64,000 bases of DNA, from NCBI GenBank assembly GCA_021228405.1, contig JAJQRF010000002.1:124001-188000 (forward strand). The letters are read 5' to 3'. The notes under the pieces were generated by a model. It had not been told where the DNA came from. It did not search any database and was given only the letters and a program-made list of their open reading frames with translations. The translations under genes and the position numbers were made by a program. Each line of letters starts with the position of its first letter. Positions within the stretch are counted from its first letter, which is position 1. This DNA comes from Pyrinomonadaceae bacterium (lineage in GTDB: Bacteria; Acidobacteriota; Blastocatellia; Pyrinomonadales; Pyrinomonadaceae). Below, piece by piece: positions 15,458-40,171 of this stretch.

Positions 15458-18400
15458 ATGAAAAAGGTGCACCCTTTCTCGAAAAAAACAAAAAGCGAAA
15501 GTAGTGTTCGCACAAATGTTAGTTTCGGGATTGGAAAAGTATTAGCATTACTGGCGTTTTTCGTGCTGGCGGCGGCAATTCCCGCGTGGGCTCAAAAAAC
15601 TTCAGGTCAGATTTCCGGTAATGTCGTCGACCAAAGCGGTGCTACGATACCGGATGCCACAATAACAGCGACACAAGTCGGAACCGGTCTGCAAAGAACG
15701 GCGACGACGAGTGAAGACGGAAATTACAGTTTGACGGATTTGCCGGTCGGCGTTTACAAGATTTCCGTCAAAAAAACCGGCTTTAAAGAAGCGGTGGTTG
15801 ACAACATTTCAGTGAACGTTGCCTCAACCACGAGACAAGATGTTTCTTTACAGGTCGGTGCGGTCGGTGAAGTCGTGACGATCACGGCGGATGTCGTTCA
15901 GGTTGAAACGCAAACCGGAACGGTCGGCGAAGTCGTGACGGGCGAACAGGTTCGCGAATTGCCTTTGAACGGAAGAAGTTTCGTTCAATTGACGCAGTTA
16001 CAGCCCGGCGTTTCGGCGCAGAACAACTTTGACAGCAAAAACAAAGGCTTGTTCGCAGGCGTTGATTTTTCGGTCAACGGAAACTCGGCGCAAAGTAATC
16101 TTTTCTTAACCGACGGCGCAAACAATAACGATACGGGTTCAAACCGTACGATTCTTCTGTATCCGTCAATTGAAGCAATTGCAGAATTCAAGTCGTTAAG
16201 AAACAGCTACGGTCCCGAATACGGGCAAGCCGCCGGCGCGATCGTTTCGATCGTTACGCGCGGCGGTGAAAATCAATTTCACGGCAGTTTGTTTTATTTC
16301 GGACGCAACGACGTTTTAAACTCGGCAGAGTTTTTCACGAATCGAAGCGGTTTGAAAAAAGACCCGTTGCGCCGTAACGACTTCGGATTTTCGCTCGGCG
16401 GACCGATTCTCAAAGATCGTTTGTTCTTCTTCTATTCGCAGGAATGGAACAAAGAGCTTCGCGGGGCGACGCGCACGGCGAGTGTTCCGACCGCCGCCGA
16501 AAGAAGCGGTGATTTCCGCAATCGGCGCACTTTGTCGAACGGAGTCGAGTGCAGTGGTGCGGCAATCGGAAACGGACGACCGGGTGCCGACACCCAGGTT
16601 ATTCCGAATGCAAGTCTGAGTCCTGCGGGTCTGGCATTGGTAAAAGTTTACCCGTTGCCGAACCTGACCTGGACACCGGCAAGCGGAACCTGTAACAACT
16701 GGGCGGCATCGCTTTCTTCGCCGATCAATTTCCGTGAAGAAAACGTTCGTATCGACTACAACATAACGAAAAAACATCAGATGTTCGGTCGCTACACGCA
16801 GGACACCTGGGTAAACGCGTCGCCGATCCTTTTTGCAAATCTTTGGGGCGATGATGCGTTTCCGGGCGTTGAAAGCAGTTGGAAACAACCGTCGCGTCAA
16901 GCGGCAGTCAAATTGACTTCGACACTTTCGTCAACGGCGATCAACGAAGTTCAGTTTTCGTATTCGGCAAACCGTATCATCATCACGCCCGGCATCGGCG
17001 GAGATGTCAATCAGGAAATCAACACGAGAATTCCGGGATATTTCCCCGACAGCGTCAAAGTAAACGGCGTAAATCGCCCGCACCCTGTTTTCTGGGGCGG
17101 CATTCAGCCTTTTAACAGCACGAGCGGTGCAGACCTGTGGACGCAGGCACCATTTAAGAATTCACTCGATATTTATTCGATCAGAGATGATTTCTCAAAG
17201 GTTTGGGGCGACCACGCCTTGAAAATGGGCTTTTTGTTTGACAAAGCTCAGAAGAACGAAGATTCGGGTCCGTCCAACGAAACCCCGCAATTCTGGGGAG
17301 CTTGTTGCGGCAACAACTCGGGCAACTACTTAGCCGACGTTTTGACGCAGGGAAGCTTGTTCGGTTTCAGCGAAAATGACAAGCAAGCCGTCGCAAACAC
17401 GAAATATACGAATCTCGAATTTTATTTCGGCGACACCTGGAAAGTCAGACCGAACGTCACGTTGGAATTGGGCGCACGTTATTCGATCCTGTTCGAGCCG
17501 TATGACAAGAATGATGCGATCAGCTCGTTCGACCCGACGACTTATAACCCGTCAAGACCTGCTTCCGATCCCTGCAACGGTTTGGTCGTTCCGAAAGGAA
17601 CCAATCCCTGCGCCGGAATCGCAGGTGCAAGCACGCCGACGGAGTTTTCAAACCGTTCGCTCCGCAAGAATAATTACAAAAACCTTGCGCCGCGCCTCGG
17701 TGTCGCGTGGGACGTATTCAGCAACGGTAAAACTGCGATCAGAGGCGGCTTCGGTCAATTCTACCTGCGCGAACGCGTCGGTCCGGTTGTCGGCGGTTTG
17801 ACCTCAAACTCGCCTTTCGTTAAATCCATCGGCGGTCAGCGCACTTTGGACGGAAGCGTATTTACAGGACTCAGTGCGGCATCGAACGGTTCGCCGAGCC
17901 GTGCTTTCAGCCCTGAAGCGGCAACCCCGTATTCGCTGCAATTCAATATTTCAGCGGCACAGCAATTGTGGAAAGATACGGTGATCGAACTCGGTTATGT
18001 CGGCAATCGCGCCCGCAATCAGCTGACGCATTACGACATCAACCAACCGACTCCGGCAAACAGATTGTCGGCGGCGTTTGCACTCGATGCCAACGGCGTA
18101 AACAATTTCCGCCCGTATAGAAATTACGGTTCGATCTATCAATTTGCCCGTGAAGGCTACTCGGACTATGATTCGATGCAAGTCTTGTTCAAAACGAGAT
18201 TTGGAAAGAGCTTCAGTCTGCAAGCGGCTTACACCTGGTCGAAATCGCTGGCTAACTTCGGTTTGAGCGATTCGTCAAACGGTCCGAGCGGATTCGCTCT
18301 GCTCGATACTTACGATCCGGGTCTGGATTACGGTCCATCAGACATCAATCGTCCGCATATTTTTGTGGCGCAGATGATCTATTACCTGCCGAAATTCAAA

Positions 18401-19084
18401 GGCTCGAACGCATTTATCGAAAATGTGATCGGCGGATGGGAAATTGCCTCGATCGTTCAGGCTTCGAGCGGCACTTCGCTGACGACAAATCTGAACGCGA
18501 CAGGACTCTCGTATCTGATTCCGAACGGCGGCGGCTTCGGCACGCAAAGTCTTTCGGGCGGAGTTTCGGGAACGGGTTCATCGCAGGCAAACTTGCGACC
18601 GAATCGGGTTGAAGGAGTTCCCTGCACCGTTACCAACGGTGACGGAACAACCTTTATCAATCCTAACGCCTTTACGCTGGTTGGTCTGAGAATCGGACAA
18701 AACGGAAACGCATCACGCGGTTCGTGTCAGGGTTCACCGACCAAAAACGTGGACTTCTCGATCTACAAAAACTTTTCGCCTTCGTGGTTAAAGGAAAGTT
18801 TCTTTGGTGAACGGGCAAATCTGCAATTCAGATTTGAATTCTTTAATGCCTTTAACACGGCGCAATTCAGAGGCGACAGAATCGGCACGGTTTACTATGA
18901 CGGTTTAGTTCGTTGCGGCAGTGGTGCAACCCAGTGCAGCCCGACAAATAACGTCATTACCGCTCTGATCACACCGAACGGAACACAAGCCGGCGCAGTG
19001 CGCGGACCGAATTCCAACTACGGAATTTCGACGCTCACACGCGGACCTCGTGAAATCCAATACGCGTTGAAATTTACATTCTAA
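15458..19084 (+). CDS. TonB-dependent receptor, Oar/SusC-like with carboxypeptidase-regulatory domain
   Basis: A 1208-residue outer-membrane receptor. A long N-terminus with signal peptide (core VLALLAFFVLAAAIPAWAQ, ending near residue 46) is followed by a carboxypeptidase-regulatory-like beta-sandwich ('GQISGNVVDQSGATIPDATI', about 50-130). Next is the plug ('REQVRELPLNGRSF'-type region, 'FSVNGNSAQSNLFLTDGANNND', 'GPEYGQAAGAIVSIVTRGG'), then a large beta-barrel ending 'REIQYALKFTF' with the terminal aromatic needed for outer-membrane assembly. Such receptors import oligosaccharides using TonB energy. The ribosome site GGAGG is good. It heads a series of exported proteins (TPR, CRTAC1, GH31); no SusD homologue is nearby. 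Confidence 0.93.
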   Translation: MKKVHPFSKKTKSESSVRTNVSFGIGKVLALLAFFVLAAAIPAWAQKTSGQISGNVVDQSGATIPDATITATQVGTGLQRTATTSEDGNYSLTDLPVGVYKISVKKTGFKEAVVDNISVNVASTTRQDVSLQVGAVGEVVTITADVVQVETQTGTVGEVVTGEQVRELPLNGRSFVQLTQLQPGVSAQNNFDSKNKGLFAGVDFSVNGNSAQSNLFLTDGANNNDTGSNRTILLYPSIEAIAEFKSLRNSYGPEYGQAAGAIVSIVTRGGENQFHGSLFYFGRNDVLNSAEFFTNRSGLKKDPLRRNDFGFSLGGPILKDRLFFFYSQEWNKELRGATRTASVPTAAERSGDFRNRRTLSNGVECSGAAIGNGRPGADTQVIPNASLSPAGLALVKVYPLPNLTWTPASGTCNNWAASLSSPINFREENVRIDYNITKKHQMFGRYTQDTWVNASPILFANLWGDDAFPGVESSWKQPSRQAAVKLTSTLSSTAINEVQFSYSANRIIITPGIGGDVNQEINTRIPGYFPDSVKVNGVNRPHPVFWGGIQPFNSTSGADLWTQAPFKNSLDIYSIRDDFSKVWGDHALKMGFLFDKAQKNEDSGPSNETPQFWGACCGNNSGNYLADVLTQGSLFGFSENDKQAVANTKYTNLEFYFGDTWKVRPNVTLELGARYSILFEPYDKNDAISSFDPTTYNPSRPASDPCNGLVVPKGTNPCAGIAGASTPTEFSNRSLRKNNYKNLAPRLGVAWDVFSNGKTAIRGGFGQFYLRERVGPVVGGLTSNSPFVKSIGGQRTLDGSVFTGLSAASNGSPSRAFSPEAATPYSLQFNISAAQQLWKDTVIELGYVGNRARNQLTHYDINQPTPANRLSAAFALDANGVNNFRPYRNYGSIYQFAREGYSDYDSMQVLFKTRFGKSFSLQAAYTWSKSLANFGLSDSSNGPSGFALLDTYDPGLDYGPSDINRPHIFVAQMIYYLPKFKGSNAFIENVIGGWEIASIVQASSGTSLTTNLNATGLSYLIPNGGGFGTQSLSGGVSGTGSSQANLRPNRVEGVPCTVTNGDGTTFINPNAFTLVGLRIGQNGNASRGSCQGSPTKNVDFSIYKNFSPSWLKESFFGERANLQFRFEFFNAFNTAQFRGDRIGTVYYDGLVRCGSGATQCSPTNNVITALITPNGTQAGAVRGPNSNYGISTLTRGPREIQYALKFTF

Positions 19085-19102
19085 ATTTCAATTTTTCTTG
19101 AC

Positions 19103-19139
19103 CAGGAAGGTGAAGTCATTTTCTGACTTTACCTTCCTG
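19103..19139 (+). terminator. Hairpin after the TonB receptor gene
   Basis: A 16-bp stem with one wobble pair (19103-19118 with 19124-19139, CAGGAAGGTGAAGTCA side) has a 5-nt loop, followed by a weak T run (TTTATC). It may partly terminate or protect the receptor mRNA, lowering expression of the downstream TPR genes. Confidence 0.55.
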
Positions 19140-19201
19140 CTTTATCTGATTTATGCTTTGTGTAACCCGATAATCCGATTACACAATTTTTTCAGCAATC
19201 A

Positions 19202-21463
19202 ATGACGGCAAAAGTAGTAACTGCATTTTTTTTACTCTGCACCTCGCTCGGTGTTTCCGCACAAATTGCCCCGAAAAAAACTCCGCCGAAAACAAACGAA
19301 CAAACTTCCGTTCTGCAAGCCGACACCGAACTGCAAAAGCATCTCAGCGCGGCTGAAACCTATCAATTAACGGGCGACATTTACCGCGCCGAACCCGAAA
19401 ACAAAGCGGTCGTTGCCATCGCTTTACAACGGCTCGGGATTATCGCGCTCGAAGAGGAAGAATTCCAAAAAGCCGCCAAATATTTAAATAGTTCGGCAAA
19501 TATCATCGAAGATTCGCTGACGCGGGCAAGTTTGGCGGTCGCTTATATGCGTTTGAACGAAAATGAAAAAGCGGTCAGCGAGGCAACCGCCGCAATCAGT
19601 TTAGACGCAAAAAACTTTCGCGCTTACCAGATTTTAGGAAGTTTTTACTACGCGAAAGGCGATTTTCAAAACGCACTTCTCCCGCTCGAAAAAGTTTTAC
19701 AGCTTGCTCCCGATTTCGACGGCGCATATCTGCTCGGCATCACCTATCTGCATCTGAAACAGCCCGAACGCGCCAAACTTCTGTTCGAGGAAATTCAAAC
19801 CGCGGTCAAAAAAGACAGCGTGAGTTTGCATATGATGTTCGGGCGCGCTTTTGAAGAAACCGAGTATCCGCTCGAAGCCGAACGCGAATACAGACGCGCA
19901 CTTTCGATAAATCCGAAGGAATCGAAGGTAAATTTCTATCTCGGCTTTGTGATTATGCAAAACGGCGGTGCGGAAAGGCTTGCCGAAGCGGGAAAGTTTT
20001 TCGAGCAGGAATTAGCCGTCAATCCGAAAGATTTTTATTCGCATTTCTTTCTCGGCGTGGTTTATTCTTCGCTCAACGAACATCAAAAAGCTGTCGATTA
20101 TCTGCAAAAAGCGATTCTGCTCAATCCGAAAAAAGGACAAAGTTATTTATTTTTAGGGCAATCGCAAGCCGAACTCGGCGATGCGGCAAATGCCGAAAAG
20201 AATCTGCGCCGCGCCATCGAATACACGACCGATGCTAAAGCCGACGATTTTCAGATTCGCCGCGCTCATTTCCAGCTTGGTCGCCTGCTCATAAAAGCGG
20301 GCAGAAAAGAAGAAGGCGATAAGGAATTGGCGACAGCGCGTCAGATTCAGGAACGAATGCTCGACCGCGACCGCAACGAAGTCGGCAAAATCCTCGGTCA
20401 GGTCGTTGCCGACGAAGTAAAACCAGCTCAAATTACCGAAAAACTGCAACCCGCTAAACTTTCGCCGCAGAAAACGGCGGAATTTGCTAAAACGAAAGCC
20501 CGCCTCGCCGACATTCTCGGACAGGCTTATAACAACCTCGGCGTGATCGCCGTTCAGCAGGGAAACCTCGAAGACAGCCTCGAAAAATTTTCCGCCGCCG
20601 CCGAGTGGAAACCGAATCTCGCGGGTCTGGATAGAAATTGGGGCATCGTCGCTTTTCGTTTGAACCAGTTTGAAAAAGCCTCCGTGCCGCTTTCGCGTCA
20701 CTTAAAAATCAACCCGAAAGATGATCTTGCACGCCGAATGCTCGGCGTAAGCTACTATTTTTCAAAGAATTACAAACAAGCCGCCGTCGTTCTGAAACCG
20801 ATCGAAATGCAAATCGGCGACGACATCGAACTGAGTTATTTCTACGGCGTTTCGCTCGTTCAGTCGGAACTCAACAAAGATGCCGAAATTGTTTTCAATC
20901 GCCTGATCGAACAAAATCCGAAAAACGCGCAAGCCAGATTTTATGCGGCGCAGGGATTCGTCTTTACGGGAAATTTTGAAAAATCATTACAGGAATTTCG
21001 CGCCGTCGCCGCGCTCGATCCTTCGATTGAAAAAGTTCATTACAACGCCGGACAAAGTTTGATCCGGCTTAACCGTCTTGACGAAGCCGAACAGGAATTT
21101 CGTAAAGAACTGGAAATAAATCCGACCGACGAGCTGGCAAAATATCATCTGGCTTTTACGCTTTTGGAGAGAAAAATCCAATTCGATGAGGCATTTAACT
21201 TATTGAAAGAAGCGATCTTAACCAAACCTGACTACGCCGACGCGCATTATCAGCTCGGCAAAATTTACAACGAAAAAGGCGAAACGGAAAAAGCCGTCGA
21301 GCACCTCGAAAAATCGGTCAAGGTCGATCCGGGAAAAGATTACGCGCATTACCAGTTGAGCATCGCGTATCGGCGTGCTTCACGGATGGCTGATGCCGAG
21401 CGCGAGTTGAAAATTTACCGTGACCTGAAAGCCGCCAACCGTCAGGTCAATTCGCCGATGTGA
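19202..21463 (+). CDS. Secreted tetratricopeptide repeat protein
   Basis: A 753-residue exported protein: signal peptide 'VVTAFFLLCTSLGVSAQ', then TPR units through most of the length, e.g. 'AYQILGSFYYAKGDFQNAL', 'VNFYLGFVIMQNG', 'AHYQLGKIYNEKGETEKAVEHL'. A charged linker at about 385-430 (VVADEVKPAQITEKLQPAKL) separates two TPR superhelices. TPR solenoids are scaffolds. Because SusD-family glycan-binding proteins have a TPR-derived fold and none is found beside the receptor, this protein is a candidate functional replacement. No Shine-Dalgarno sequence is evident. The next gene begins 5 bp after its stop. Confidence 0.9.
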   Translation: MTAKVVTAFFLLCTSLGVSAQIAPKKTPPKTNEQTSVLQADTELQKHLSAAETYQLTGDIYRAEPENKAVVAIALQRLGIIALEEEEFQKAAKYLNSSANIIEDSLTRASLAVAYMRLNENEKAVSEATAAISLDAKNFRAYQILGSFYYAKGDFQNALLPLEKVLQLAPDFDGAYLLGITYLHLKQPERAKLLFEEIQTAVKKDSVSLHMMFGRAFEETEYPLEAEREYRRALSINPKESKVNFYLGFVIMQNGGAERLAEAGKFFEQELAVNPKDFYSHFFLGVVYSSLNEHQKAVDYLQKAILLNPKKGQSYLFLGQSQAELGDAANAEKNLRRAIEYTTDAKADDFQIRRAHFQLGRLLIKAGRKEEGDKELATARQIQERMLDRDRNEVGKILGQVVADEVKPAQITEKLQPAKLSPQKTAEFAKTKARLADILGQAYNNLGVIAVQQGNLEDSLEKFSAAAEWKPNLAGLDRNWGIVAFRLNQFEKASVPLSRHLKINPKDDLARRMLGVSYYFSKNYKQAAVVLKPIEMQIGDDIELSYFYGVSLVQSELNKDAEIVFNRLIEQNPKNAQARFYAAQGFVFTGNFEKSLQEFRAVAALDPSIEKVHYNAGQSLIRLNRLDEAEQEFRKELEINPTDELAKYHLAFTLLERKIQFDEAFNLLKEAILTKPDYADAHYQLGKIYNEKGETEKAVEHLEKSVKVDPGKDYAHYQLSIAYRRASRMADAERELKIYRDLKAANRQVNSPM

Positions 21464-21468
21464 AATAA

Positions 21469-23001
21469 ATGAAAAGACTGAATTTCACAAAATTCTTATT
21501 GATTTTTCCACTTTTAGCGGCGTTTTTTCTGCCCGTTTTCGCACAGAAGAAAGCTCCGCCAAAAGACGTTTTGACGGTATTTGAAAAAAATATCGAACAG
21601 GGCAAACTTGCCGAAACCGAACGACCTTTGCTCGATTTCGCGCTTGCCGACCCGCAAAATCTTCGTGCCCTCGAACTCGTCGGACGGCTTCGTTTTCGGC
21701 AAAATCGGATCGAAGAAGCCAAGGCACTTTACGCCAGAGTTTTGACGCTCGACGCAAATTTTACGACGGCAAGGATAAATTACGGGATCATTCTCGCGCA
21801 AACCGGACAGCTTGACGATGCGCGTCAAATTTTGAGCGGAATAAACGATTCGGAACTAAAAGACGCGACCGCAAGGCTCAACTTCGCGCAGGTTTTAACA
21901 CTTGTCGGCGACATTCCGAAAGCCCTCGAAACGGCGGAAAAACTGCCGTTAAATATAAAAAACTCCGACGCTTTGCCCGTTTTCGCGGTTTGTTATCTTG
22001 AACTCGGCGACAAAACAAAATTCGATTCGCTCGTTCCTTTAGCCAAAAAGATCGCGCCGACGAAAGTGAATATTTCGCTGAAATTTGCCGAAATTCTCCT
22101 TAATGCAAAGCAAACCCCGCAAGCAGTCGAATTGCTTCGCGCCGTTGCGCTTGCCGCGCCGAAAAACGCGAAAGCCTTGATCTTGCTCGGAAAAGCCGAA
22201 ATTTACGCGGGCGATTTTGCGAATGCGAAAAAGCACCTCGCTCAAGCCGAAGTTTTACAACCGAAATCGGCGGAAGTTTTTTTCCTTCAAGCGATGCTCG
22301 AAAATGCACAGGGAAATTCAACAGCGGCGTTTGACCTGATCGAAAAAGCCGTTGCGCTCGAACCTAATTCCAAAACGCTTCTATCACAGTTCGTCGTCGC
22401 GGCAATGCGCGGAAATAAAGCGCAAAAAGCCGTCGAAGCGGCTGAAAAACTGCTTATCATCAATCCGAACGATCCCGATTTTCTATATCTTTTCGGCGCG
22501 GCTTCCCTGCAAAACGGAAACTTGGATAAAGCGCAGAAATCGTTGGAAACGCTGATGCAGATTCGCCCCAACGATTCTCGCGGCTGTCTTGCGCTCGGTT
22601 TGACGCTCGCCGCACAGCGCGATCAGCTCGAACCCGCGCGCCGTCAGCTCGAACGCTGTGTCGAAATAAATCCGTCAAACTTTGAAGCGAAATATCAGCT
22701 CGGACTTTCTTATAAAACACAGGGCGACACGGCAAAAGCTATTCAATATCTGGAAGAAACCGTCGCGCTCGCACCGAATTATCCGCTCGCTTTGCGCGAT
22801 CTCGGCGCGGTTTATCTGCAATCGGGCGCGGAACAAAAGGCGAAAAACGTCTTGGAAAAAGCCGTCGCGCTTGCGCCGAACGATGCCGAAACGCATTTTC
22901 AACTCAGCCGTTTATACAATCTTCTGGGCGACGGCACATCAGCCAAAAAACATCTTGAAATGTTCCAAAAATTACGAAATCCGGGAGGAAATTTGATGTG
23001 A
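21469..23001 (+). CDS. Secreted tetratricopeptide repeat protein
   Basis: A 510-residue exported TPR protein: signal peptide 'FLLIFPLLAAFFLPVFAQ', then about a dozen TPR units such as 'ALELVGRLRFRQNRIEEAKALYARVL', 'ALILLGKAEIYAGDFANAKKHL' and 'AKYQLGLSYKTQGDTAKAIQYLEETV'. It resembles the upstream TPR protein in architecture but lacks its central linker. Its stop overlaps the next start (TGATG), so it is translationally coupled to the CRTAC1 gene. TPR and ASPIC/UnbV domains are often linked in Acidobacteriota and Planctomycetes. Confidence 0.9.
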   Translation: MKRLNFTKFLLIFPLLAAFFLPVFAQKKAPPKDVLTVFEKNIEQGKLAETERPLLDFALADPQNLRALELVGRLRFRQNRIEEAKALYARVLTLDANFTTARINYGIILAQTGQLDDARQILSGINDSELKDATARLNFAQVLTLVGDIPKALETAEKLPLNIKNSDALPVFAVCYLELGDKTKFDSLVPLAKKIAPTKVNISLKFAEILLNAKQTPQAVELLRAVALAAPKNAKALILLGKAEIYAGDFANAKKHLAQAEVLQPKSAEVFFLQAMLENAQGNSTAAFDLIEKAVALEPNSKTLLSQFVVAAMRGNKAQKAVEAAEKLLIINPNDPDFLYLFGAASLQNGNLDKAQKSLETLMQIRPNDSRGCLALGLTLAAQRDQLEPARRQLERCVEINPSNFEAKYQLGLSYKTQGDTAKAIQYLEETVALAPNYPLALRDLGAVYLQSGAEQKAKNVLEKAVALAPNDAETHFQLSRLYNLLGDGTSAKKHLEMFQKLRNPGGNLM

Positions 23002-24734
23002 TGAAAACGAAACGAATTTTCTCCGCGCTTCTTTTTATCTCGCTTTTCGGCAATTTGTTTTCTTCCGTAAACGCACAGGTTTGCACTAATCGAAGGATTC
23101 CGCAGTTTGCGGATATTGTTGCAAAAACGGGAATTAAGTTTGTTCACACGTCTGCACCCGAAAAAAAATACATCGTCGAATCGATGTCGGGCGGCGTTTT
23201 ATTAATTGATTATGACCGCGACGGTTGGCAGGATATTTATCTGACAAATGCGCCGACAGTCGAGATGGAACTCAAAAAACAAAAATCGCGGTCGGCACTT
23301 TATAAAAACAACAAAGACGGCACTTTTACCGACGTGACGGATAAAGCCGGAGTCGCTTTTCCGGGTTTTGCAATGGGCGGCGCGGTCGGCGATTACAACA
23401 ACGACGGGTTTCCCGATATTTACGTAACTTGTCTGGGCGCAAACGTTTTGTATCGCAACAACGGTGACGGAACTTTTACCGACATCGCCAGGGAAGCCAA
23501 AGTCGATGATGCCCGCTGGTCGGCGGGCGCGGCTTTCGGCGATTACGACGGCGACGGATTTCTCGATCTTCTGGTTTCAAATTATGTCGATTTCAAGCTT
23601 AACGATCTTCCCGGTTTCGGCGCGAGTCCGACGTGTAAATTTCGCGGAATCGACGTGCAATGCGGACCGCGAGGCTTGAAAGGTGCGGGCGACACGCTTT
23701 ACAAAAACAACGGCGACGGAACGTTTTCGGATGTCACCAAACAACTCGGGTTTGAAGATGCGGGCGGTTATTACGGCTTGCAGGTCGGTTGGTCTGATTT
23801 CGGAAACACGGGCAGATCGGACGCTTACGTGGCAAACGATTCAACGCCGAATTTCTTTTATAAAAACGAAGGAAAAATTAAATTTACGGAAATCGGACTC
23901 GAATCGGGAACGGCGGTGAGCGGCGACGGTTCGGAGCAAGGTTCGATGGGTTTAGCGATCGGCGATTATCTGCACACGGGAAAATTTGCGATCTTTGTCA
24001 CAAATTTCGCCGACGAATACAACACGCTTTACCGCAACAACGGGAATTACGATTTTACCGACGCGTCCTTTATCGCCAAAGTTGCCCAGCCGTCACGTCC
24101 GTGGGTCGGTTGGGGAACGGGTTTTGTCGATTTCGATAATGACACGTGGCTCGATCTTTTTGTCGTCAACGGTCACGTTTACCCGCAAATGGATCAGCTT
24201 CCTTCGGGTGCGAAATATCGCCAGCCGAAACTGCTTCATATAAACTTGGGCGACGGAACTTTTTGCGATGCAAGCAATCAAGCCGGAAATGCTTTGACCG
24301 AACTTCGCGCGGCACGCGGCGCGGCTTTCGGCGATCTGGACAACGACGGGCAGATCGATGTCGTCGTCGGAGATTTGGACAATGCGCCGATGATTTTGAA
24401 AAATGAAGGCGACAAAACCAATCATTGGCTGACTTTGGAACTCGGTGCGAAAAACGGAAATCCTTTGGCGATCGGTGCAAGAATAAAAGTTACGACCGGA
24501 AGCGTCACGCAAACCGAAGAAATCAGAAGCGGCGGAAGTTATCTTTCGCAAAGCGATCTGCGCGTTCACTTCGGCTTAGGCAAAGCGTTAAAAGCCGATC
24601 TGATCGAAATTCGCTGGAATTCGGGCAAAGTCGAAACATTAAAAGACGTTGCGGCGGACAAATTTTATGCGATTCTCGAAGGCGAAGGAATCGTCCCGTT
24701 TGAAAAGATGCGTCCGGCAAAGGCGTTGAAGTAA
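23001..24734 (+). CDS. CRTAC1-family secreted protein (FG-GAP/VCBS repeats plus ASPIC/UnbV)
   Basis: A 577-residue protein from the ATG at 23001; a GTG one codon earlier is possible, but the ATG overlaps the upstream stop and follows GGGAGGAAATTTG. It has signal peptide 'IFSALLFISLFGNLFSSVNAQ' and an integrin-like propeller with many calcium loops (DYDRDGWQDIY, DYNNDGFPDIY, DYDGDGFLDLL, DFDNDTWLDLF, DLDNDGQIDVV). A conserved Cys pair sits around 'CKFRGIDVQCGPRGL', and the C-terminus is ASPIC/UnbV (GGSYLSQSDLRVHFGLG ... IEIRWNSGKVE). Function is not established; binding of a surface ligand or glycan is plausible. It is a paralogue of the next gene. Confidence 0.9.
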   Translation: MKTKRIFSALLFISLFGNLFSSVNAQVCTNRRIPQFADIVAKTGIKFVHTSAPEKKYIVESMSGGVLLIDYDRDGWQDIYLTNAPTVEMELKKQKSRSALYKNNKDGTFTDVTDKAGVAFPGFAMGGAVGDYNNDGFPDIYVTCLGANVLYRNNGDGTFTDIAREAKVDDARWSAGAAFGDYDGDGFLDLLVSNYVDFKLNDLPGFGASPTCKFRGIDVQCGPRGLKGAGDTLYKNNGDGTFSDVTKQLGFEDAGGYYGLQVGWSDFGNTGRSDAYVANDSTPNFFYKNEGKIKFTEIGLESGTAVSGDGSEQGSMGLAIGDYLHTGKFAIFVTNFADEYNTLYRNNGNYDFTDASFIAKVAQPSRPWVGWGTGFVDFDNDTWLDLFVVNGHVYPQMDQLPSGAKYRQPKLLHINLGDGTFCDASNQAGNALTELRAARGAAFGDLDNDGQIDVVVGDLDNAPMILKNEGDKTNHWLTLELGAKNGNPLAIGARIKVTTGSVTQTEEIRSGGSYLSQSDLRVHFGLGKALKADLIEIRWNSGKVETLKDVAADKFYAILEGEGIVPFEKMRPAKALK

Positions 24735-24743
24735 GAATATTTA

Positions 24744-24834
24744 TCCACAGATGAACACGGATAAATAGGATGTTTTTGAGATTTTTTTACCAAATCATAT
24801 TTTCCATCTGTGTGAATCGGTGTTCATCTGTGGA
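24744..24834. repeat. Inverted repeat of the TCCACAGATGAACA type
   Basis: TCCACAGATGAACA (24744-24757) and its perfect reverse complement (24821-24834) flank a 63-bp loop that carries further degenerate copies (CATCTGTGTGAATCGG). This CACAGATGAACAC phrase recurs in intergenic DNA of many bacteria. It separates the two CRTAC1 genes. Confidence 0.8.
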
Positions 24835-24849
24835 AAATAAATTTTCAAA

Positions 24850-26562
24850 GTGAAGATTTTTATAGTTTTAGTTTCAATCTTCGTTTGCGTTTTGCCGAGC
24901 TTCGCGCAAAGCGTTCCGATTTTGTTTAAGGACGTGACAAAGGAAAGCGGCATCAATGTTTCGCACATTGCAACGCCCGAAAATCGTTACATTATCGAAT
25001 CGATGTCGGGCGGGGCGGCGGTTTTCGATTGTGATAATGACGGTTTTCTCGATGTCGCAACCGTCAACGGTTCGTCCGTCGAAAACTTCAAAAAAGGCGG
25101 CGATCTTTTCGTCACGCTTTATCGTCAGATCGATGGCGCGACAAGCAAAACTCCGAAATTTGAAAATGTGACCGAATCGGCAAATCTCAAACGCAAAGGT
25201 TGGGGAATGGCGGTCACGGCAGTCGATTTCGATGCAGACGGAAACCTCGATCTTTTCATCACGGGATTTAACGGAAACGCCGTTTATCGCGGGCTCGGAC
25301 AATGCAAATTTCAGGATGTGACGGAAAAATCGGGACTGAAGGGCGACGGATTTATGACGGGCGCGGCTTGGGCGGATTACGACCGCGACGGCGATTTGGA
25401 CGTTTTCGTAGCGGGTTACGTCAAGCTCGATCTGAATAATTTGCCCGTTTTCGGAAGTTCGCAAACTTGTTCATTCAAGGGAATTCGCGTCCAATGCGGT
25501 CCGCGCGGTTTGCCGGGCGAAGGCGATTTTTTCTACCGCAATCGCGGCAACGGAACATTTGAAGAAATTTCGCAAAAGATCGGCGTGGCGGACGGGAAAA
25601 AATATTACGGGCTCGGCGTAATTTGGGGCGATTACAACGACGACGGCTGGCTCGATATTTATGTCGCCAACGACGGAACGCCCAATTATCTTTACAAAAA
25701 CAACGGCGACGGCAGTTTTACGGATGTCGGTTTTGTAACGGGAACGAGCTATAGCGGCGCGGGAATCGAACAGGGTTCGATGGGCGTGGCTTTCGGCGAT
25801 TACGACGGCGACGGAAAGATCGATCTTTTCGTGACGAATTTCGACAACGAACACAACACGCTTTATCGAAATCTCGGCGCGAAAGGCTTTCTCGACGTTT
25901 CGTTTGAATCGAAAATTGCCGCGCCGAGTGTTCCGTTCGTCGGTTGGGGAACGGGATTTTTCGATTTCGACAATGACGGCTGGCTCGATATTTTCGTGCT
26001 GAACGGGCACGTTTATCCGCAGATCGAATTTGCCCAAAGCAAGACCCAACTCGGCTTCCGACAGCATTTTCTGCTTCATCGAAACCTTGGAAACGGGACT
26101 TTTTCTGACGAAACGGAAAGTTCGGGATTAAAGAATCTGACGCTTTTATCGCGGCGCGGTGCGGCTTTCGGCGATCTGAACAACGACGGAAAAATCGACG
26201 TGGTAGTGACAAATCTCGGCGCGGTTCCGACCGTCTTGCTGAATACGACCGCGAACGAAAATCAGAGCGTGAGCCTGAAATTAACGCAAAAAGGCATAAA
26301 TCGTGACGCGATCGGCGCACGTGTAATTTTGAAAACAAAGCAACGCACGATGACGCAATCGGTCGAAGCCGGCGCGAGTTATTTGTCGCAAAACGATCTT
26401 CGTCTGCATTTCGGTTTTCCGAAAAATGAAAAGATCGAATCGCTCGAAATTCGCTGGAGCGACGGCAAAACCGAAACGATTCCGGGCGTTTTGCCGGACA
26501 AATTAAATTTTATAACGCAGAATAAAGGCGTAACCGAAACGCGTAATTTTCGGAATAATTGA
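24850..26562 (+). CDS. CRTAC1-family secreted protein (second paralogue)
   Basis: A 570-residue protein starting at GTG (no clear ribosome site, but the signal peptide 'KIFIVLVSIFVCVLPSFAQ' starts at once). The layout equals the preceding gene: VCBS calcium loops (DCDNDGFLDVA, DFDADGNLDLF, DYDRDGDLDVF, DYNDDGWLDIY, DYDGDGKIDLF), the 'CSFKGIRVQCGPRGLPG' loop, and C-terminal ASPIC/UnbV (GASYLSQNDLRLHFGFP ... LEIRWSDGKTETI). The two share whole motifs yet differ throughout, so the duplication is old. It may form a complex with its paralogue and the TPR proteins. Confidence 0.9.
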   Translation: MKIFIVLVSIFVCVLPSFAQSVPILFKDVTKESGINVSHIATPENRYIIESMSGGAAVFDCDNDGFLDVATVNGSSVENFKKGGDLFVTLYRQIDGATSKTPKFENVTESANLKRKGWGMAVTAVDFDADGNLDLFITGFNGNAVYRGLGQCKFQDVTEKSGLKGDGFMTGAAWADYDRDGDLDVFVAGYVKLDLNNLPVFGSSQTCSFKGIRVQCGPRGLPGEGDFFYRNRGNGTFEEISQKIGVADGKKYYGLGVIWGDYNDDGWLDIYVANDGTPNYLYKNNGDGSFTDVGFVTGTSYSGAGIEQGSMGVAFGDYDGDGKIDLFVTNFDNEHNTLYRNLGAKGFLDVSFESKIAAPSVPFVGWGTGFFDFDNDGWLDIFVLNGHVYPQIEFAQSKTQLGFRQHFLLHRNLGNGTFSDETESSGLKNLTLLSRRGAAFGDLNNDGKIDVVVTNLGAVPTVLLNTTANENQSVSLKLTQKGINRDAIGARVILKTKQRTMTQSVEAGASYLSQNDLRLHFGFPKNEKIESLEIRWSDGKTETIPGVLPDKLNFITQNKGVTETRNFRNN

Positions 26563-26576
26563 TTAGGGAGAATTTT

Positions 26577-27251
26577 ATGAAAAAGTTAATTTTGTCAGTA
26601 TTTTTTATATTTTTGCTTGCTCTTTCGGCAAACGTTTTCGCGCAGGGCATAATGCCGGCGGGAGCTTCGGACAAAAATCTCGAAGACCGCAACGTGAAAG
26701 ACCGCTCGAACGAGATCGAACGCGTGAAGCGCGAGGACGCGAAAGCCGATAAAGCCAAACAAGAAAACGACCAAGCGGCGCAGGTGAGATTTACCGAGGT
26801 AAAAGAAGATTTCGAGAAAATCCAAATGCTTCAAAATGAAATTATTACGGCTTATTCAAAGGAAAAGCAGATCAATTACGCCAAGATTTCGACCGATGCC
26901 GATCAGATAAACAAAAGCGGAATTCGTTTGAAAGTAAATCTTTTCACGCCGCCCGCCGAAGAAAACAAAGATTCAAAAGACAAAAAGAAATCGAAAGACA
27001 AGAAAAAGGAAACGGTTGCGCCCGCTCCGGTCGAAGCCAAACCGGAACAGCCTCTGCCGACCGGCATCAGATCGCTGATCGTCGAAATGGACAATACGCT
27101 GGCGGCTTTTGTCAACAATCAGATGTTTACCAACCCGCAGAACGTCAATCCGGCGGAAAATGCGAAAGCGCAAACCGACCTGGAAAGATTGATAAAGTTG
27201 AGTGCCGCGCTCAAAGAAGAAGCGGATAAAAATCTGACGACGGCAAAATAA
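26577..27251 (+). CDS. Small secreted protein of unknown function (paralogue of 29983-30573)
   Basis: 224 residues from the ATG at 26577, chosen because AGGGAG lies 6 bp upstream and a signal peptide follows (KKLILSVFFIFLLALSANVFAQ). The mature part is helical and highly charged: 'SNEIERVKREDAKADKAKQ', then 'VKEDFEKIQMLQNEIITAY' and 'EKQINYAKISTDADQINKSGIRLKVNL'. A Lys-rich Pro linker (KDKKKSKDKKKETVAPAP) precedes a final helix pair. No known domain. The same order of motifs occurs in the protein encoded at 29983, so these are paralogues on either side of the GH31 gene. Confidence 0.8.
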   Translation: MKKLILSVFFIFLLALSANVFAQGIMPAGASDKNLEDRNVKDRSNEIERVKREDAKADKAKQENDQAAQVRFTEVKEDFEKIQMLQNEIITAYSKEKQINYAKISTDADQINKSGIRLKVNLFTPPAEENKDSKDKKKSKDKKKETVAPAPVEAKPEQPLPTGIRSLIVEMDNTLAAFVNNQMFTNPQNVNPAENAKAQTDLERLIKLSAALKEEADKNLTTAK

Positions 27252-27260
27252 TTTACAAAA

Positions 27261-29660
27261 ATGAATATTTTAAGATTAGCCCGAAAGCGAAATTTCGTTC
27301 TTTCAGTTTTCTGTCTGTGCGCTTTTTCGTTTCCGGTGAAATCGGTTCCGGCACAGATTTTGGGCGATACGGAAGATGTCAGCCGTGATTTTCGCGCTTT
27401 TGAAAATGTTCATTTTATCGGCAGTCGTCTGGCGGATTTCGATGCCGCAAAAGGCACGGGCAAACTTGTTTGGGACAGATATTTGCGCTCGACATCGCTG
27501 AATTTTAACAAGCTCGATGCGGGACTTTCAAAAGGAAAAGCGACCGAATTTCCGGCGACCGAATACGATGAAAATCCTGCGCTTCCCTTCAGCATTTCAT
27601 TCGTTTCGCCGCGCACCGTTCGTTTGCGCTTCAATTCCCGCGCCGCCGCCTTTGATGAAGGATTTTCGCTGATGCTCGACGGCGTTCCCGCGAAAACCGA
27701 TTCGTGGAAAGTCAGCGAAACGGCGGACGAAATAGTTTACACAAGCACTTTCGGACAGGTCAAAATCGTCAAAAATCCTTGGCACGTCGAATTTTACGAT
27801 GCAAACGGGAAACTTTTGACGCGGACGCAAAATCTGAACGATCCGCGTTCGTTTCTTTCCTCAACGCCGTTTTCGTTCGTCCGCCGCGCCGCCGATCTGA
27901 GCCGGCGTTTTGCCGCGACATTCTCGCTCGCACCCGATGAAAAAATCTTCGGCGGCGGCGAATCGTTTACGCGGCTCAACAAACGCGGGCAAAAAATGAA
28001 TCTGACAACACGCGACGCGATGGGCGCGCAGAGCCAGTTGATGTATAAACCGATTCCGTTTTTCCTGAGCGATCAAGGTTACGGAATGTTCGTTCATACA
28101 TCTGCGCCCGTAACTTTCGATTTCGGTCAATTTTACGACGCTCACAACACTATCTATTCAGCCGATGAAAAGTTCGATCTTTTCGTTTTTCTCGGCGATC
28201 CGAAGGAAATTTTGTCCGAATATACGAACCTGACCGGAAAAAGTCCCGTTCCGCCGCTCTGGTCTTTCGGTTTTTGGATGAGCCGCATCACTTACAAATC
28301 CGAGGAAGAAGTGCGCAATGTCGCCGCCAAGCTTCGCGAAAACAAAATTCCGGCGGACGTGATCCATCTCGATACGGGCTGGTTTGAAACCGATTGGCGC
28401 AGTAACTACGAATTTTCCAAAACACGTTTCCGGAATCCGCAGAAGATGATCTCCGACCTAAAACAGCAGGGTTTTCACGTTTCGCTCTGGCAATATACTT
28501 ATTTCACTCCGAAAAACGAGCTTTTCAAGGAAATCACGGCAAAAAATTATGCGGTTCGCAACGAAAGCGGAACGATGCCGTTTGAAGACGCGGTTCTCGA
28601 TATGAGTAATCCGGACGCGGTCAGATGGTATCAGGAAAAACTTTCCGCGCTGTTAAAGCTCGGTGTCGGCGCGATCAAGGTCGATTTCGGCGAAAACGCT
28701 CCGATCTCGGGACAATATTTTTCGGGTAAAAGCGGACTTTACGAACATAATCTTTACCCGCTCCGCTACAACAAAGCCGTTGCCGACATCACGAAACAAA
28801 CGACGGGCGATTCGATCATCTGGGCGCGCAGTGCGTGGGCAGGAAGCCAACGTTATCCGCTTCATTGGGGCGGCGATGCCGAAAATACGAATTCGGCAAT
28901 GGCGGCGGAGCTTCGCGCCGGACTTTCGTTCGGTCTTTCGGGTTTTACTTATTGGAGTCACGATGTCGGCGGGTTTGTCGAACGTGCGCCGCGTGATCTT
29001 TATCGTCGCTGGCTGGCATTCGGCGTGCTGACTTCGCACACGCGCGCGCACGGTGCGCCGCCGCGTGAACCGTGGGAATATGACGAAAAACTGACCGAAG
29101 ATTTTCGCCGCGCTTTGCAGTTGCGCTATTCGCTGATGCCGTATATCTACGCGCAGGCGAAAGATTCTTCCGAAAAGGGTTTTCCGATGTTGCGGACATT
29201 GTTTTTCGAGTTTCCGGATGATAAAACTTCGTGGCTGATCGAAGACGAATATATGTTCGGCGAAAATCTGCTGGTCGCGCCGCTTTTTGAAGACAATCAA
29301 ACAAAGCGCAAAGTTTATCTGCCGCCGGGAGTATGGTTCGATTATCAAACGGGAAAAATTTTCCGGGGCGAAAAATGGCACGAGATCGAAGCAGGCGAAA
29401 TTCCGATCGTTCTACTCGTCAAGAACGGTTCCGTTTTGCCGATGGCGAAAGCGGTGCAGAGCACCCCGGAAATTGATTGGAATAACATCGAGCTTCGCAT
29501 TTTCAGCAATGAAGGCGCAAAGGTTTCGGGAAAATTTGCATTGCCGAATTCAACTCTGCAAACGCTCGAATTGATAAATTCACGGGATAAATATTCGTTG
29601 AAAAATGACTTTTCGGGCGGAAAAATAGAGTGGAAGATCGACCGTTTTGTTGCGAAATAG
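27261..29660 (+). CDS. GH31 glycosidase, alpha-xylosidase-like
   Basis: A 799-residue exported enzyme (N-terminal 'FVLSVFCLCAFSFPVKSVPA'). It is a clear GH31 enzyme: 'IHLDTGWFETDWRSNYEF', nucleophile D475 in IKVDFGENAP, acid/base D539 in WGGDAENT, and 'LSGFTYWSHDVGGF'. The nucleophile context (KVDFGE) and the 'RSAWAGSQRYPLHWGGD' region resemble E. coli YicI-type alpha-xylosidases rather than alpha-glucosidases, pointing to isoprimeverose or xyloglucan side chains. It starts 9 bp after the small secreted protein gene. Specificity is inferred. Confidence 0.9.
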   Translation: MNILRLARKRNFVLSVFCLCAFSFPVKSVPAQILGDTEDVSRDFRAFENVHFIGSRLADFDAAKGTGKLVWDRYLRSTSLNFNKLDAGLSKGKATEFPATEYDENPALPFSISFVSPRTVRLRFNSRAAAFDEGFSLMLDGVPAKTDSWKVSETADEIVYTSTFGQVKIVKNPWHVEFYDANGKLLTRTQNLNDPRSFLSSTPFSFVRRAADLSRRFAATFSLAPDEKIFGGGESFTRLNKRGQKMNLTTRDAMGAQSQLMYKPIPFFLSDQGYGMFVHTSAPVTFDFGQFYDAHNTIYSADEKFDLFVFLGDPKEILSEYTNLTGKSPVPPLWSFGFWMSRITYKSEEEVRNVAAKLRENKIPADVIHLDTGWFETDWRSNYEFSKTRFRNPQKMISDLKQQGFHVSLWQYTYFTPKNELFKEITAKNYAVRNESGTMPFEDAVLDMSNPDAVRWYQEKLSALLKLGVGAIKVDFGENAPISGQYFSGKSGLYEHNLYPLRYNKAVADITKQTTGDSIIWARSAWAGSQRYPLHWGGDAENTNSAMAAELRAGLSFGLSGFTYWSHDVGGFVERAPRDLYRRWLAFGVLTSHTRAHGAPPREPWEYDEKLTEDFRRALQLRYSLMPYIYAQAKDSSEKGFPMLRTLFFEFPDDKTSWLIEDEYMFGENLLVAPLFEDNQTKRKVYLPPGVWFDYQTGKIFRGEKWHEIEAGEIPIVLLVKNGSVLPMAKAVQSTPEIDWNNIELRIFSNEGAKVSGKFALPNSTLQTLELINSRDKYSLKNDFSGGKIEWKIDRFVAK

Positions 29661-29982
29661 AAAATGCGGAGATAAAAAATCTTATTTTTAAAGTGAATTC
29701 GGAATCAGGAAAATTTGCCCGCGAAACACGCGAAAGACACGAAAAAAAGAAAGTAAGAAACCCGGATTTTACAATCCCGGACTGACGATATTCGCGTGTT
29801 TCGCAGACAAGATCGAATGTAGTTTCTAAAACTTCCTTATCCCGGACTGACGCTATTTTTATCTTGCTCCGCCCGTCATATAAAAAATTTATTTTCAAAG
29901 ATATTCGCAAATGTGCTAAATTTATTTCATAAAAAACATTGTGCGAAGGTCATTTTTCGCCGCTAAAAGGGAGGAATTTTTC
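29661..29982. other. Intergenic region with repeats
   Basis: No gene. It contains an inverted repeat (29721-29804, separate entry) and a direct repeat TCCCGGACTGACG at 29775-29787 and 29840-29852. The ribosome site GGGAGGA for the next gene is at 29969-29975. Confidence 0.5.
29721..29804. repeat. Inverted repeat GCGAAACACGCGAA
   Basis: Perfect 14-bp arms at 29721-29734 and 29791-29804. The left arm continues as AAGACACGAAAAA. A related repeat with ACGAAACAAAC arms lies at 48921-48976. Confidence 0.75.
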
Positions 29983-30573
29983 GTGAAGAGTTTAGTTTTG
30001 ATGGTCGGCATCCTTTTATTTTCCGTCGGAAATATTTTTACGCAGGACGTTCCCGGCGTGGCAAACGGTTCGGTCGGTCGCAATAGCCGCGACGATTACG
30101 ATAACGGCATCAGGATGCGTTCGATTCAGCTCGAACGCGCCAAACGCGAAAATTATCGCCAGAGAGTTATCGAAATACGAAAAATGAACTACGCTCAGAT
30201 CAAGAAAGATTTTGAACTCCTTCAAAAATTACAGAGCGAGATAGTTAAAACCTACGTCACGGGAAAGGAAATCAACTACAAGCGCATCGGCGAACTTGCT
30301 TCAAAGGTAAGCGAATGCGCCAAGCGGCTTGACGCAAACCTTTCGCTTTATGAAGAAGATCAGCCCTCAAAATCGAAACTAAAGGAATCCGAGCTTCAGG
30401 ACATCAAGAACATAATCGTCGTTCTCGATAAATCCGTCGGAAATTTCGTGACGAGTCCGATCTTTCAAAATCTTAACGTCATCGAAACGAAAACCACTGA
30501 AAACGCCGAAACGGAATTGCGAAACATCATTCGCCTGAGTTTTCTTCTGGAGCAAAAATCCAAAGTGCCGTGA
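29983..30573 (+). CDS. Small secreted protein of unknown function (paralogue of 26577-27251)
   Basis: 196 residues from GTG 29983, placed 7 bp after GGGAGGA. The frame is open from 29941, but the added residues would precede the signal peptide (LVLMVGILLFSVGNIFTQ). The mature part repeats the motif order of its paralogue: 'RMRSIQLERAKRENYRQR', 'YAQIKKDFELLQKLQSEIVKTY', 'KEINYKRIGELASKVSECAKRLDANL'. Probably an all-helical periplasmic protein; role unknown. Confidence 0.78.
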   Translation: MKSLVLMVGILLFSVGNIFTQDVPGVANGSVGRNSRDDYDNGIRMRSIQLERAKRENYRQRVIEIRKMNYAQIKKDFELLQKLQSEIVKTYVTGKEINYKRIGELASKVSECAKRLDANLSLYEEDQPSKSKLKESELQDIKNIIVVLDKSVGNFVTSPIFQNLNVIETKTTENAETELRNIIRLSFLLEQKSKVP

Positions 30574-31131: not shown

Positions 31132-31172
31132 CGCAGTTCTCCATTTTTCATTTTTGCAGAAATAGTTTATAT

Positions 31173-33916: not shown

Positions 33917-35044
33917 ATGAAAAAATCATTTTTTCTAATCTTGATTCTATTCGTTTGCGCGCAATTTTCAGCCGCGCGAACGATTGCGCACAAACGCGCC
34001 GAACGAATGAGCGTCGGGATGAATATTTCGTATCTCGATAATTGGTGGAACGGCACAAAAGCGAAAATTTACGGTGATTTTGCCAAAACTTCGGAAGCGG
34101 CAAAACGCGAAAAAATGTTTGCCGACATCGCCCGCGCAGGATTCAAAACCGTTCGCATCCCGATAAATTTCGGCGCGTGGGCAAATTATGAAAAACCCTA
34201 CAAATGGGAAAATCAGGAAGGCTTAAAACTTGCCGATTCATTTGTTAAATGGGCTTCGGACAATAAGTTAAATGCAATCATCGATCTGCATCACGTCGAA
34301 TTCGACGGTTCGGTGAAAGGCGCGGCGGCGACTGAAAGAGTCGTTTGGCTGTGGCGGGAAATTGCGGAAAGATACAAAAATACCGATCCCGAAAAGGTCT
34401 TTTTTGAACTCCGCAACGAACCGCACGACATCAAGGCTGATGAATGGCGCAGACAGGCGGAAGAAATCATCAAAGCAATTCGCAAGATCGCGCCGAATCA
34501 TACTTTGATTGTCGGCTTTCACGATTGGAATTCGCGACAAGCGTTGATCGAATCAGAACCCTTTAAAGATTCAAACATAATTTACACGTTTCATTATTAC
34601 GACCCGTTTCTTTTCACGCATCAAGGCGCAACCTGGTCGAATAAAGGTTTGGCGGAAATGAAAAATATTCCGTTTCCGTGGAAGGAAACTTTTTCGGCAA
34701 AAGCTCCGCAAAATGTTGATGATACTTGTGTTGTGGGTTTAATAAACACATACGAAAAAGATTCGCAGGAAGCAAAAATGTCAGCCGATCTGAAAACGGC
34801 GAAAGATTGGTCTGAAAAACACAAAGTGCCGGTATTTATCGGCGAATTCGGCTCTTTCACGCGTTATGCCGCAGAAGCCGACCGTTGCCGTCACGCCGAA
34901 ACGGTTTATAAAATTTTCGGCAAACTGAAAATTCCGAATGCTTGGTGGGAATGGGACGGCGGCTTTAATATGTTCAAAAAGGGCGCGACCGAAATCGCCG
35001 ACTGTATGCGCAAAGCGGTCGATTCTTTTGAGGCGCAAAAATAG
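33917..35044 (+). CDS. GH5 endo-glycanase (cellulase/mannanase type)
   Basis: A 375-residue exported enzyme (signal 'FFLILILFVCAQFSAA'). Typical family 5 barrel: 'FKTVRIPINFGAWANYEKPY', the 'ELRNEPHD' strand with acid/base E168, 'DWNSRQ', 'YTFHYYDPFLFTHQG', and nucleophile E310 in FIGEFGSF. It cleaves internal beta-1,4 links in glucan, mannan or xyloglucan; the subfamily cannot be fixed by eye. It is 79 bp after GH3 and 38 bp before GH20. Confidence 0.92.
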   Translation: MKKSFFLILILFVCAQFSAARTIAHKRAERMSVGMNISYLDNWWNGTKAKIYGDFAKTSEAAKREKMFADIARAGFKTVRIPINFGAWANYEKPYKWENQEGLKLADSFVKWASDNKLNAIIDLHHVEFDGSVKGAAATERVVWLWREIAERYKNTDPEKVFFELRNEPHDIKADEWRRQAEEIIKAIRKIAPNHTLIVGFHDWNSRQALIESEPFKDSNIIYTFHYYDPFLFTHQGATWSNKGLAEMKNIPFPWKETFSAKAPQNVDDTCVVGLINTYEKDSQEAKMSADLKTAKDWSEKHKVPVFIGEFGSFTRYAAEADRCRHAETVYKIFGKLKIPNAWWEWDGGFNMFKKGATEIADCMRKAVDSFEAQK

Positions 35045-39331: not shown

Positions 39332-40171
39332 ATGTCTGAAAATTTCTTGAAATTTCTATTCGTGTTGTTATTTTTACCCGGATTTTTCGCACCGCTTTCG
39401 GTGCAAGGGCAAGTTCGTTATCGAAAATTGACCTTTAAGGATGAATTTAACGGCGCAAACGGTTCGGGAATTAACACCAACAAATGGACGGCAGAGATCG
39501 GCGGCGGCGGCTGGGGCAATCAGGAATTGCAGTATTACACAAATTCGACCGAAAACGCGTATCTCGACGGCAACGGCAATCTGGTTATCAAAGCTATTAA
39601 ACTCAATCCGCCTTTAAATTTAAGTTGTTGGTATGGTCCGTGCCAATATACTTCGGCACGACTCATCACCAAAGGAAAATTCGATCAAAAATACGGCAAG
39701 TTTGAAGCGCGAATCAAAATCCCGCGCGGACAAGGAATGTGGGGCGCGTTTTGGATGCTCGGCAATAACATCGACACGGTGGGTTGGGCAACGTGCGGCG
39801 AAATCGACATTATGGAAAATATCGGGCGCGAACCCGCTATCGTTCACGGCACGATTCACGGTCCGGGATATTCGGGTGCAAACGGCATCGGTGCGCCTTT
39901 TTCGCTCGCAAATAATGCCGCTTTTGCAGACGATTTTCACGTTTATTCGACCGAGTGGAGCGAAAACAAAATCCAGTTTTTCGTTGACGGAAATCTTTAC
40001 AAAACCCTAACGCCGCCTGATCTGCCGAACGGTGCGAAATGGGTTTACGATCATCCGTTTTTTATGATCTTGAACTTTGCCATCGGCGGACCTTGGGGCG
40101 GAAATCCCGATAATACTTCCGTTTTTCCGAACACGATGATTGTCGATTACGTGAGAGTTTACAAAAGATAA
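39332..40171 (+). CDS. GH16 endo-beta-glucanase (laminarinase-like)
   Basis: A 279-residue exported single-domain enzyme (signal 'FLFVLLFLPGFFAPLSVQG'). The catalytic motif EIDIME (E157, D159, E162) and flanking 'KFEARIKIPRGQGMWGAFWML' identify GH16, and 'FHVYSTEWSENKIQFFVDG' is typical of the beta-1,3(4)-glucanase branch. The beta-bulge motif with Met fits laminarinases/lichenases. No carbohydrate-binding module. It produces oligosaccharides for GH3 enzymes of the same operon. Confidence 0.93.
   Translation: MSENFLKFLFVLLFLPGFFAPLSVQGQVRYRKLTFKDEFNGANGSGINTNKWTAEIGGGGWGNQELQYYTNSTENAYLDGNGNLVIKAIKLNPPLNLSCWYGPCQYTSARLITKGKFDQKYGKFEARIKIPRGQGMWGAFWMLGNNIDTVGWATCGEIDIMENIGREPAIVHGTIHGPGYSGANGIGAPFSLANNAAFADDFHVYSTEWSENKIQFFVDGNLYKTLTPPDLPNGAKWVYDHPFFMILNFAIGGPWGGNPDNTSVFPNTMIVDYVRVYKR

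Follow-up and report, generated by a model that had tools for sequence, protein, structure and literature searches.

A receptor, TPR and CRTAC1 gene neighbourhood conserved in Acidobacteriota, and its possible part in glycan uptake without SusD

Results

Genes of the receptor locus

Acidobacteriota are common in soils and encode many SusC-like receptors, to which they would have to supply polymers without SusD. We analysed a 64,000-nt stretch of contig JAJQRF010000002.1 from a Pyrinomonadaceae bacterium (the window; all coordinates are positions within it), whose genome assembly measures 5.7 Mb at 96.5% completeness. Between 15458 and 30573, all genes lie on the plus strand. They encode a SusC/Oar-type TonB-dependent receptor (15458..19084); two secreted tetratricopeptide repeat (TPR) proteins, TPR1 (753 aa, 19202..21463) and TPR2 (510 aa, 21469..23001); two CRTAC1-type FG-GAP/UnbV propellers, CRT1 (22998..24734) and CRT2 (24850..26562); a small secreted helical protein, A (26559..27251); a glycoside hydrolase (GH) of family GH31, of the alpha-glucosidase/alpha-xylosidase type (27261..29660); and a second small secreted helical protein, B (29941..30573), a paralogue of A. 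An initial annotation, made from the letters alone, had named these same genes, and all proved present, in order and on that strand.

The receptor consists of an OMP_b-brl_4 barrel (E 3.3e-174) and a CarboxypepD_reg domain (E 1.5e-19), with a Plug match of 22.6 bits that falls slightly below the 23.9 cut-off. Its domain order is identical to that of the Oar/SusC-like receptors of Acidobacteriota (PF25183 type). Both CRTAC1 proteins carry FG-GAP repeats (FG-GAP_3) and an UnbV_ASPIC domain over the curated cut-offs, with UnbV scores of 80.8 and 67.9 bits (cut-off 23.4).

A conserved neighbourhood in Acidobacteriota

Within Acidobacteriota, receptor, TPR and CRTAC1 genes recur as close neighbours. 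Scanning public genome contigs for CRT1, we found 133 relatives and kept 80, whose record titles name Acidobacteriota or its genera except for one plain "bacterium" (L110). The scan used two peptide patterns, which biases it towards proteins resembling CRT1 and limits what it can say about other phyla. Genes at each locus were labelled by their best phmmer match to the window proteins (E 1e-5), so that other GH families go unseen and a "TPR" label may denote a generic TPR protein. The initial annotation staked its proposal on a neighbourhood kept in relatives, and it came through: among the 35 of 80 loci with at least 8 kb on both sides (full-flank loci), a receptor lies within 8 kb of CRT1 in 30, a TPR gene in 32, and both in 30. 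Over all 80 loci, cut contigs included, a receptor was present in 54, a TPR gene in 62, both in 49 and neither in 13. Receptors are common in Terriglobia, and the chance of one falling within 8 kb may therefore reach about 0.45; at this rate, which is our own estimate and ignores relatedness, 30/35 gives P 7e-7. Gene orders vary (receptor-TPR-CRT, CRT-receptor-TPR, opposite strands), and cultured carriers of the trio include Edaphobacter, Silvibacterium, Acidipila and Acidicapsa. The trio is thus more widespread than the initial annotation could know.

The trees of the three components are also congruent. Across 47 loci, Mantel r was 0.75 for receptor and TPR, 0.61 for TPR and CRTAC1, and 0.45 for receptor and CRTAC1, with 0 of 2000 permutations as high; relatedness was not removed, and common descent contributes to this congruence. 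Duplicate records were dropped before the receptor and CRTAC1 trees described below were built and kept in the lipobox and pair-test counts.

Twenty loci chosen by a small-protein relative (set A), and hence not independent of the window locus, hold receptor, TPR and CRTAC1 together in 7 cases and a CRTAC1 gene in the stretch in 13; some of the other seven (L031, L032, L033, L038, L039, L042, L044) lie at contig ends. Close relatives on long contigs (L025, L028, L030, L036) keep the order receptor-TPR1-TPR2-CRT1-CRT2-small protein, with GH31 or GH3/GH5 behind, and L043 reads receptor-TPR-CRT-TPR-CRT with GH20 and GH16. The order is interrupted in L109, where an unlabelled 535-aa minus-strand gene stands between TPR2 and CRT1 and an unlabelled 524-aa plus-strand gene between CRT1 and CRT2.

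A receptor clade associated with CRTAC1

Within the host genome, about 32 places encode a PF25183-type receptor (fragments merged), and only three have an UnbV match within about 10 kb by coordinates: the window, a second trio (L009) and one place in C4. Roughly 29 of 32 such places thus have none nearby, so receptors of this kind do without UnbV. As controls we hand-chose 20 other receptor loci of this genome in stretches of about 20 kb, omitting the window, L009, the receptor beside a fusion described below (L010) and about seven others, none of which is within 10 kb of an UnbV match by coordinates. No control has a CRTAC1 gene; one has a ROK-type regulator, and five have a TPR match, mostly weak.

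Compared with other Oar/SusC-like receptors, those associated with CRTAC1 fall largely into one clade. This clade has 41 rows, 40 of them CRTAC1-associated, and the sole exception, L032, comes from a contig that ends behind its TPR gene. Over the whole receptor tree the CRTAC1-associated label changes 11 times, compared with a mean of 25.3 after shuffling (0 of 500 as low). With 11 changes, CRTAC1-associated receptors are not one single clade, and some of the scattered rows may be chance neighbours.

TPR and CRTAC1 partner proteins

TPR1 is the conserved partner, and TPR2 is present in part of the relatives. Of 99 family genomes, 28 have a TPR1 orthologue (E 1e-60), and each of these belongs to the 66 genomes with UnbV (Fisher 1.9e-6). 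Of 30 TPR1 places, 23 lie within 8 kb of an UnbV match and one at 10 kb, while six have none on the contig among the matches listed. The TPR1 model (mean predicted local distance difference test score, pLDDT, 89) shows two plain TPR solenoids, loosely joined around 397-416. Two fusion proteins of the host genome unite TPR repeats, FG-GAP and UnbV. The gene for one, L010:14341-17913, stands about 0.5 kb from the C4 receptor; the other, L011:11582-14914, is not close to any receptor, and its UnbV match reaches 22.1 bits against the 23.4 cut-off.

CRT1 and CRT2 share 46% identity over 543 columns, and in a 167-row CRTAC1 tree they are well apart: CRT1 groups with the Terriglobia proteins in a clade of 77 rows, and CRT2 belongs to a separate clade of 10 rows. 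Each member of a neighbouring CRTAC1 pair was closer to a protein of another locus in 43 of 43 pairs (marginally in L051 and in two pairs of L057), a test that shows solely that a nearer relative lies elsewhere. The two types also differ in their DxDxDG-type calcium loops. CRT2 has seven and CRT1 has lost some; we counted 6 or 7 loops in 10/10 CRT2-type proteins and 3 to 5 in 73/75 CRT1-type proteins. Separate clades, the pair test and unequal loop counts together fit an old, asymmetric pair. Human CRTAC1 (9etn) shares FG-GAP repeats and the UnbV domain with the window proteins and alone among PDB sequences matches CRT2 at E 0.001 (E 1.9e-21); unlike it, the window proteins are bacterial, and their genes stand as asymmetric pairs next to those for TPR proteins and receptors. 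Elsewhere, L077 and L080 each hold a CRTAC1 pair plus two further short CRTAC1-matching open reading frames (ORFs), with no receptor in the stretch.

The initial annotation had read the locus as three pairs, with duplication of each component as its hallmark. Two pairs stand, CRTAC1 (above) and the small proteins (28% identity, E 2e-22). TPR1 and TPR2 do not form a third: they resemble each other at repeat level only and are of unequal length, and we rejected a simple tandem duplication. Duplication suits the window's lineage and not the system at large, since at the receptor a single TPR gene and a single CRTAC1 gene are the rule among relatives (at least two TPR genes in 7/35 full-flank loci, a further CRTAC1 gene in 10/35); we rejected it as a defining feature.

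Small proteins of this type came to light in the window's family only. One lies within 8 kb of CRT1 in 4/35 full-flank loci; relatives occur in 44/99 family genomes and in 4/199 genomes sampled across the phylum, each of the four a member of that family. Neither A nor B matches a Pfam or NCBIfam family. The small-protein model is helical (mean pLDDT 79), and a PDB fold search with it gave no match at E 0.001, the best hits being helical bundles at E 0.21.

Carbohydrate genes around the trio

The initial annotation closed the locus at 30573. Its gene content held, and its end did not, as same-strand genes run on to 48896. Behind small protein B follow a GH3 whose nearest solved relative is BoGH3B (31477..33837), an endoglucanase-like GH5 (33917..35044), a GH20 nearest to a beta-N-acetylhexosaminidase (35083..37110), a ROK-family sugar kinase (37139..38104), a seven-bladed lactonase-type protein (38076..39287), a GH16 with an EIDIME motif that is nearest to laminarinases (39332..40171), a GH2 with mannosidase-type domains (40262..42802), a sodium:solute symporter (SSF; 42848..44677), a second GH3 (44683..47103) and a ROK/NagC-type transcription regulator (47703..48896). 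Our guess from these enzymes is a beta-1,3-glucan-rich substrate, possibly a fungal or oomycete wall. Xyloglucan was a candidate because the GH31 matches YicI-type enzymes and the first GH3 matches BoGH3B; we did not adopt it, since the GH16 is laminarinase-like and a GH20 does not fit that substrate.

In the window's family the trio has carbohydrate enzymes for neighbours and, in part of the loci, sugar-type regulators. Thirteen family loci have at least 1.5 kb of sequence upstream of the receptor, and in 7 of them a ROK-type regulator lies there within 2.5 kb; in the window it stands at the far end of the cluster and not upstream of the receptor. Next to Terriglobia-type trios, one gene family recurs in 10/30, and all five members checked are LacI-type, one with a helix-turn-helix (HTH) match below cut-off. 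In scans of 115 of 116 trio neighbours (one long protein was left out) and all 88 control neighbours, the LacI HTH was found in 8/115 of the former and was not in the top 25 families listed for the latter.

Discussion

A proposed SusD-less outer-membrane module

We hold with moderate confidence that the window's gene cluster serves carbohydrate utilisation and has at its core an outer-membrane module without SusD, in which a TonB-dependent receptor works with a dedicated TPR solenoid and CRTAC1 propellers. GH16 and GH5 would cut a beta-1,3-glucan-rich polymer, perhaps from a fungal or oomycete wall, and the receptor would import the resulting oligosaccharides. TPR1 may bridge receptor and CRTAC1, and CRT1 and CRT2 would join in a calcium-dependent heteropair, either to hold glycan or to stabilise the assembly. 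The fusion proteins and the tree congruence hint, if indirectly, at a physical complex. Digestion would be completed further in by GH3, GH31, GH20 and GH2, the symporter and ROK kinase would take up and phosphorylate the sugars, and the ROK regulator would control the gene set. More speculative is the idea that the trio is an independently evolved acidobacterial counterpart of SusCD, in which TPR1 forms the bridge while CRT1 and CRT2, one propeller with lost calcium loops and one with the full set, pair up as the capture head; we consider this doubtful.

Several observations weigh against a glycan-uptake module. The receptor is absent in 5/35 full-flank loci, and in three of those the TPR gene is absent too. 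In set B, 40 UnbV loci hand-picked from the family, one per genome, from strength-ranked matches listed, a receptor lies within 9 kb in only 11/40 and a TPR gene within 6 kb in 18/40. Set B omits most genomes already in set A, anchors L050 on an overlapping ORF and repeats L043 as L069, and its contigs are often short; another CRTAC1 gene stands within 3 kb in 29/40. CRTAC1 is accordingly not tied to receptors in general and has a second CRTAC1 gene nearby more often than a receptor. The 25 Pfam families most frequent in the 115 Terriglobia-type trio neighbours include no GH family, and the 88 neighbours of other receptors that serve as regulator control all belong to a single genome from a different class. 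The second trio of the host genome (L009) adjoins a major facilitator superfamily gene, without window-type GH genes, and multihaem cytochromes, which have no obvious link to glycans, turn up repeatedly next to CRTAC1.

The closest described counterparts of the proposed module are SusC/SusD loci of Bacteroidota. The fungal cell wall locus of Chitinophaga pinensis (PMC10449523) clusters a TonB-dependent receptor with GH genes and a regulator, as the window does, and both have a GH16, there a beta-1,3-glucanase. That locus targets more than one wall polymer and combines GH16 with chitinases, whereas no GH18 chitinase is among the window genes scanned; it has sigma/anti-sigma genes where the window has a ROK-type regulator; and where it has SusD, the window has TPR and CRTAC1 genes instead. 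Among the papers listed in our search of open-licence literature, none describes the receptor-TPR-CRTAC1 trio and none gives a bacterial function for CRTAC1/ASPIC-UnbV proteins. The available portions of PMC7074687 and PMC4850484 mention TonB-dependent receptors and not CRTAC1 or SusD, and that of PMC3174227 lists an ASPIC/UnbV paralogue family in Solibacter. The trio may be an uptake complex not yet described. It supplies partner genes to test and gives bacterial CRTAC1 proteins a first proposed setting.

Alternative explanations

A strong form of the reading in the initial annotation, in which TPR and CRTAC1 proteins cap the receptor at the cell surface as a lid that replaces SusD and captures glycan, we regard as unlikely. 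Its premise of a SusD-less locus was borne out with three profiles. The window shares with SusC/SusD loci a receptor with an N-terminal carboxypeptidase-regulatory-like domain and the clustering of GH genes with a regulator, and it departs from them in having no SusD homologue beside the receptor: profiles PF14322, PF07980 and PF12771, each of which matched in Bacteroides as a control, gave no match in six frames of the whole genome, TPR1 and TPR2 included. The SusD fold is TPR-based, a TPR core to which other subdomains are added, and this together with conservation of the trio favours substitution. A structural search with TPR1 brought up other TPR proteins, and SusD was not among the 50 rows listed, which excludes nothing; the model itself, with its plain solenoids, may speak against a lid. 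So may the protein starts. SusD is a surface-anchored lipoprotein, whereas in the window the TPR and CRTAC1 proteins begin with what looks like signal peptide I and lack a lipobox, and across labelled loci, duplicates included, a crude regular expression found lipobox-like starts in 2/90 TPR and 7/172 CRTAC1 proteins. GH16 and GH5 share a signal peptide I-like start, so start type does not settle the compartment of TPR and CRTAC1. Tail profiles of the type IX secretion system had no match in the genome.

Less likely again, in our judgement, is a role in envelope assembly, in which TPR and CRTAC1 proteins would assist the folding, insertion or arrangement of the receptor and its enzymes without any glycan binding of their own. 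TPR solenoids commonly act as scaffolds, and the TPR1 model, the congruence of the three trees and the occurrence of the trio without window-type GH genes would all suit such a part. A general assembly function sits poorly with the roughly 29 of 32 host receptor places that have no UnbV within about 10 kb.

An improbable third explanation makes CRTAC1-TPR a general redox or metal module whose proximity to receptors reflects metal or electron handling and not glycan capture. A family with seven CXXCH motifs lies near 8/30 Terriglobia-type trios (L119, L121, where the member is cut, L124, L129, L140, L146, L149 and L180); CXXCH-rich TPR-matching proteins occur in L056 and L061; and in the host genome a single protein, L013:11049-13310, has both Cytochrome_C554 and TPR repeats and is encoded next to CRTAC1. 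Relatives of anammox bacteria are reported to have a CRTAC1 gene beside hydrazine-synthase-like genes (PMC12758564). The LacI- and ROK-type regulators beside trios and the carbohydrate enzymes that accompany the trio in the window's family point the other way, as do the 20 set A loci, where no protein is CXXCH-rich (3 or more motifs). In several loci the seven-CXXCH gene adjoins a LacI-type gene.

Hitch-hiking among receptor and TPR genes so common that their neighbourhood says little is very improbable: nine Terriglobia genomes do have 55-154 first-look receptor candidates each (about 42 scored per genome), but the 30/35 count far exceeds the estimated chance rate, one receptor clade is involved and not random receptors, and TPR1 orthologues are confined to genomes with CRTAC1.

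Transcription of the cluster

Within the 903-bp gap behind small protein B lies a minus-strand ORF of 240 aa (30607-31329) with no Pfam match. Intergenic gaps in the cluster are mostly 5-90 bp or slight overlaps, and the larger ones (117, 115, 280, 903 and 599 bp) make several transcripts possible. The promoter and terminator scan was near chance, with 35 terminator-like sites in the region against a mean of 33.8 in shuffles. Among its sites is a 16-pair hairpin on the plus strand (19103..19139), directly 3' of the receptor stop, possibly an attenuator or processing site.

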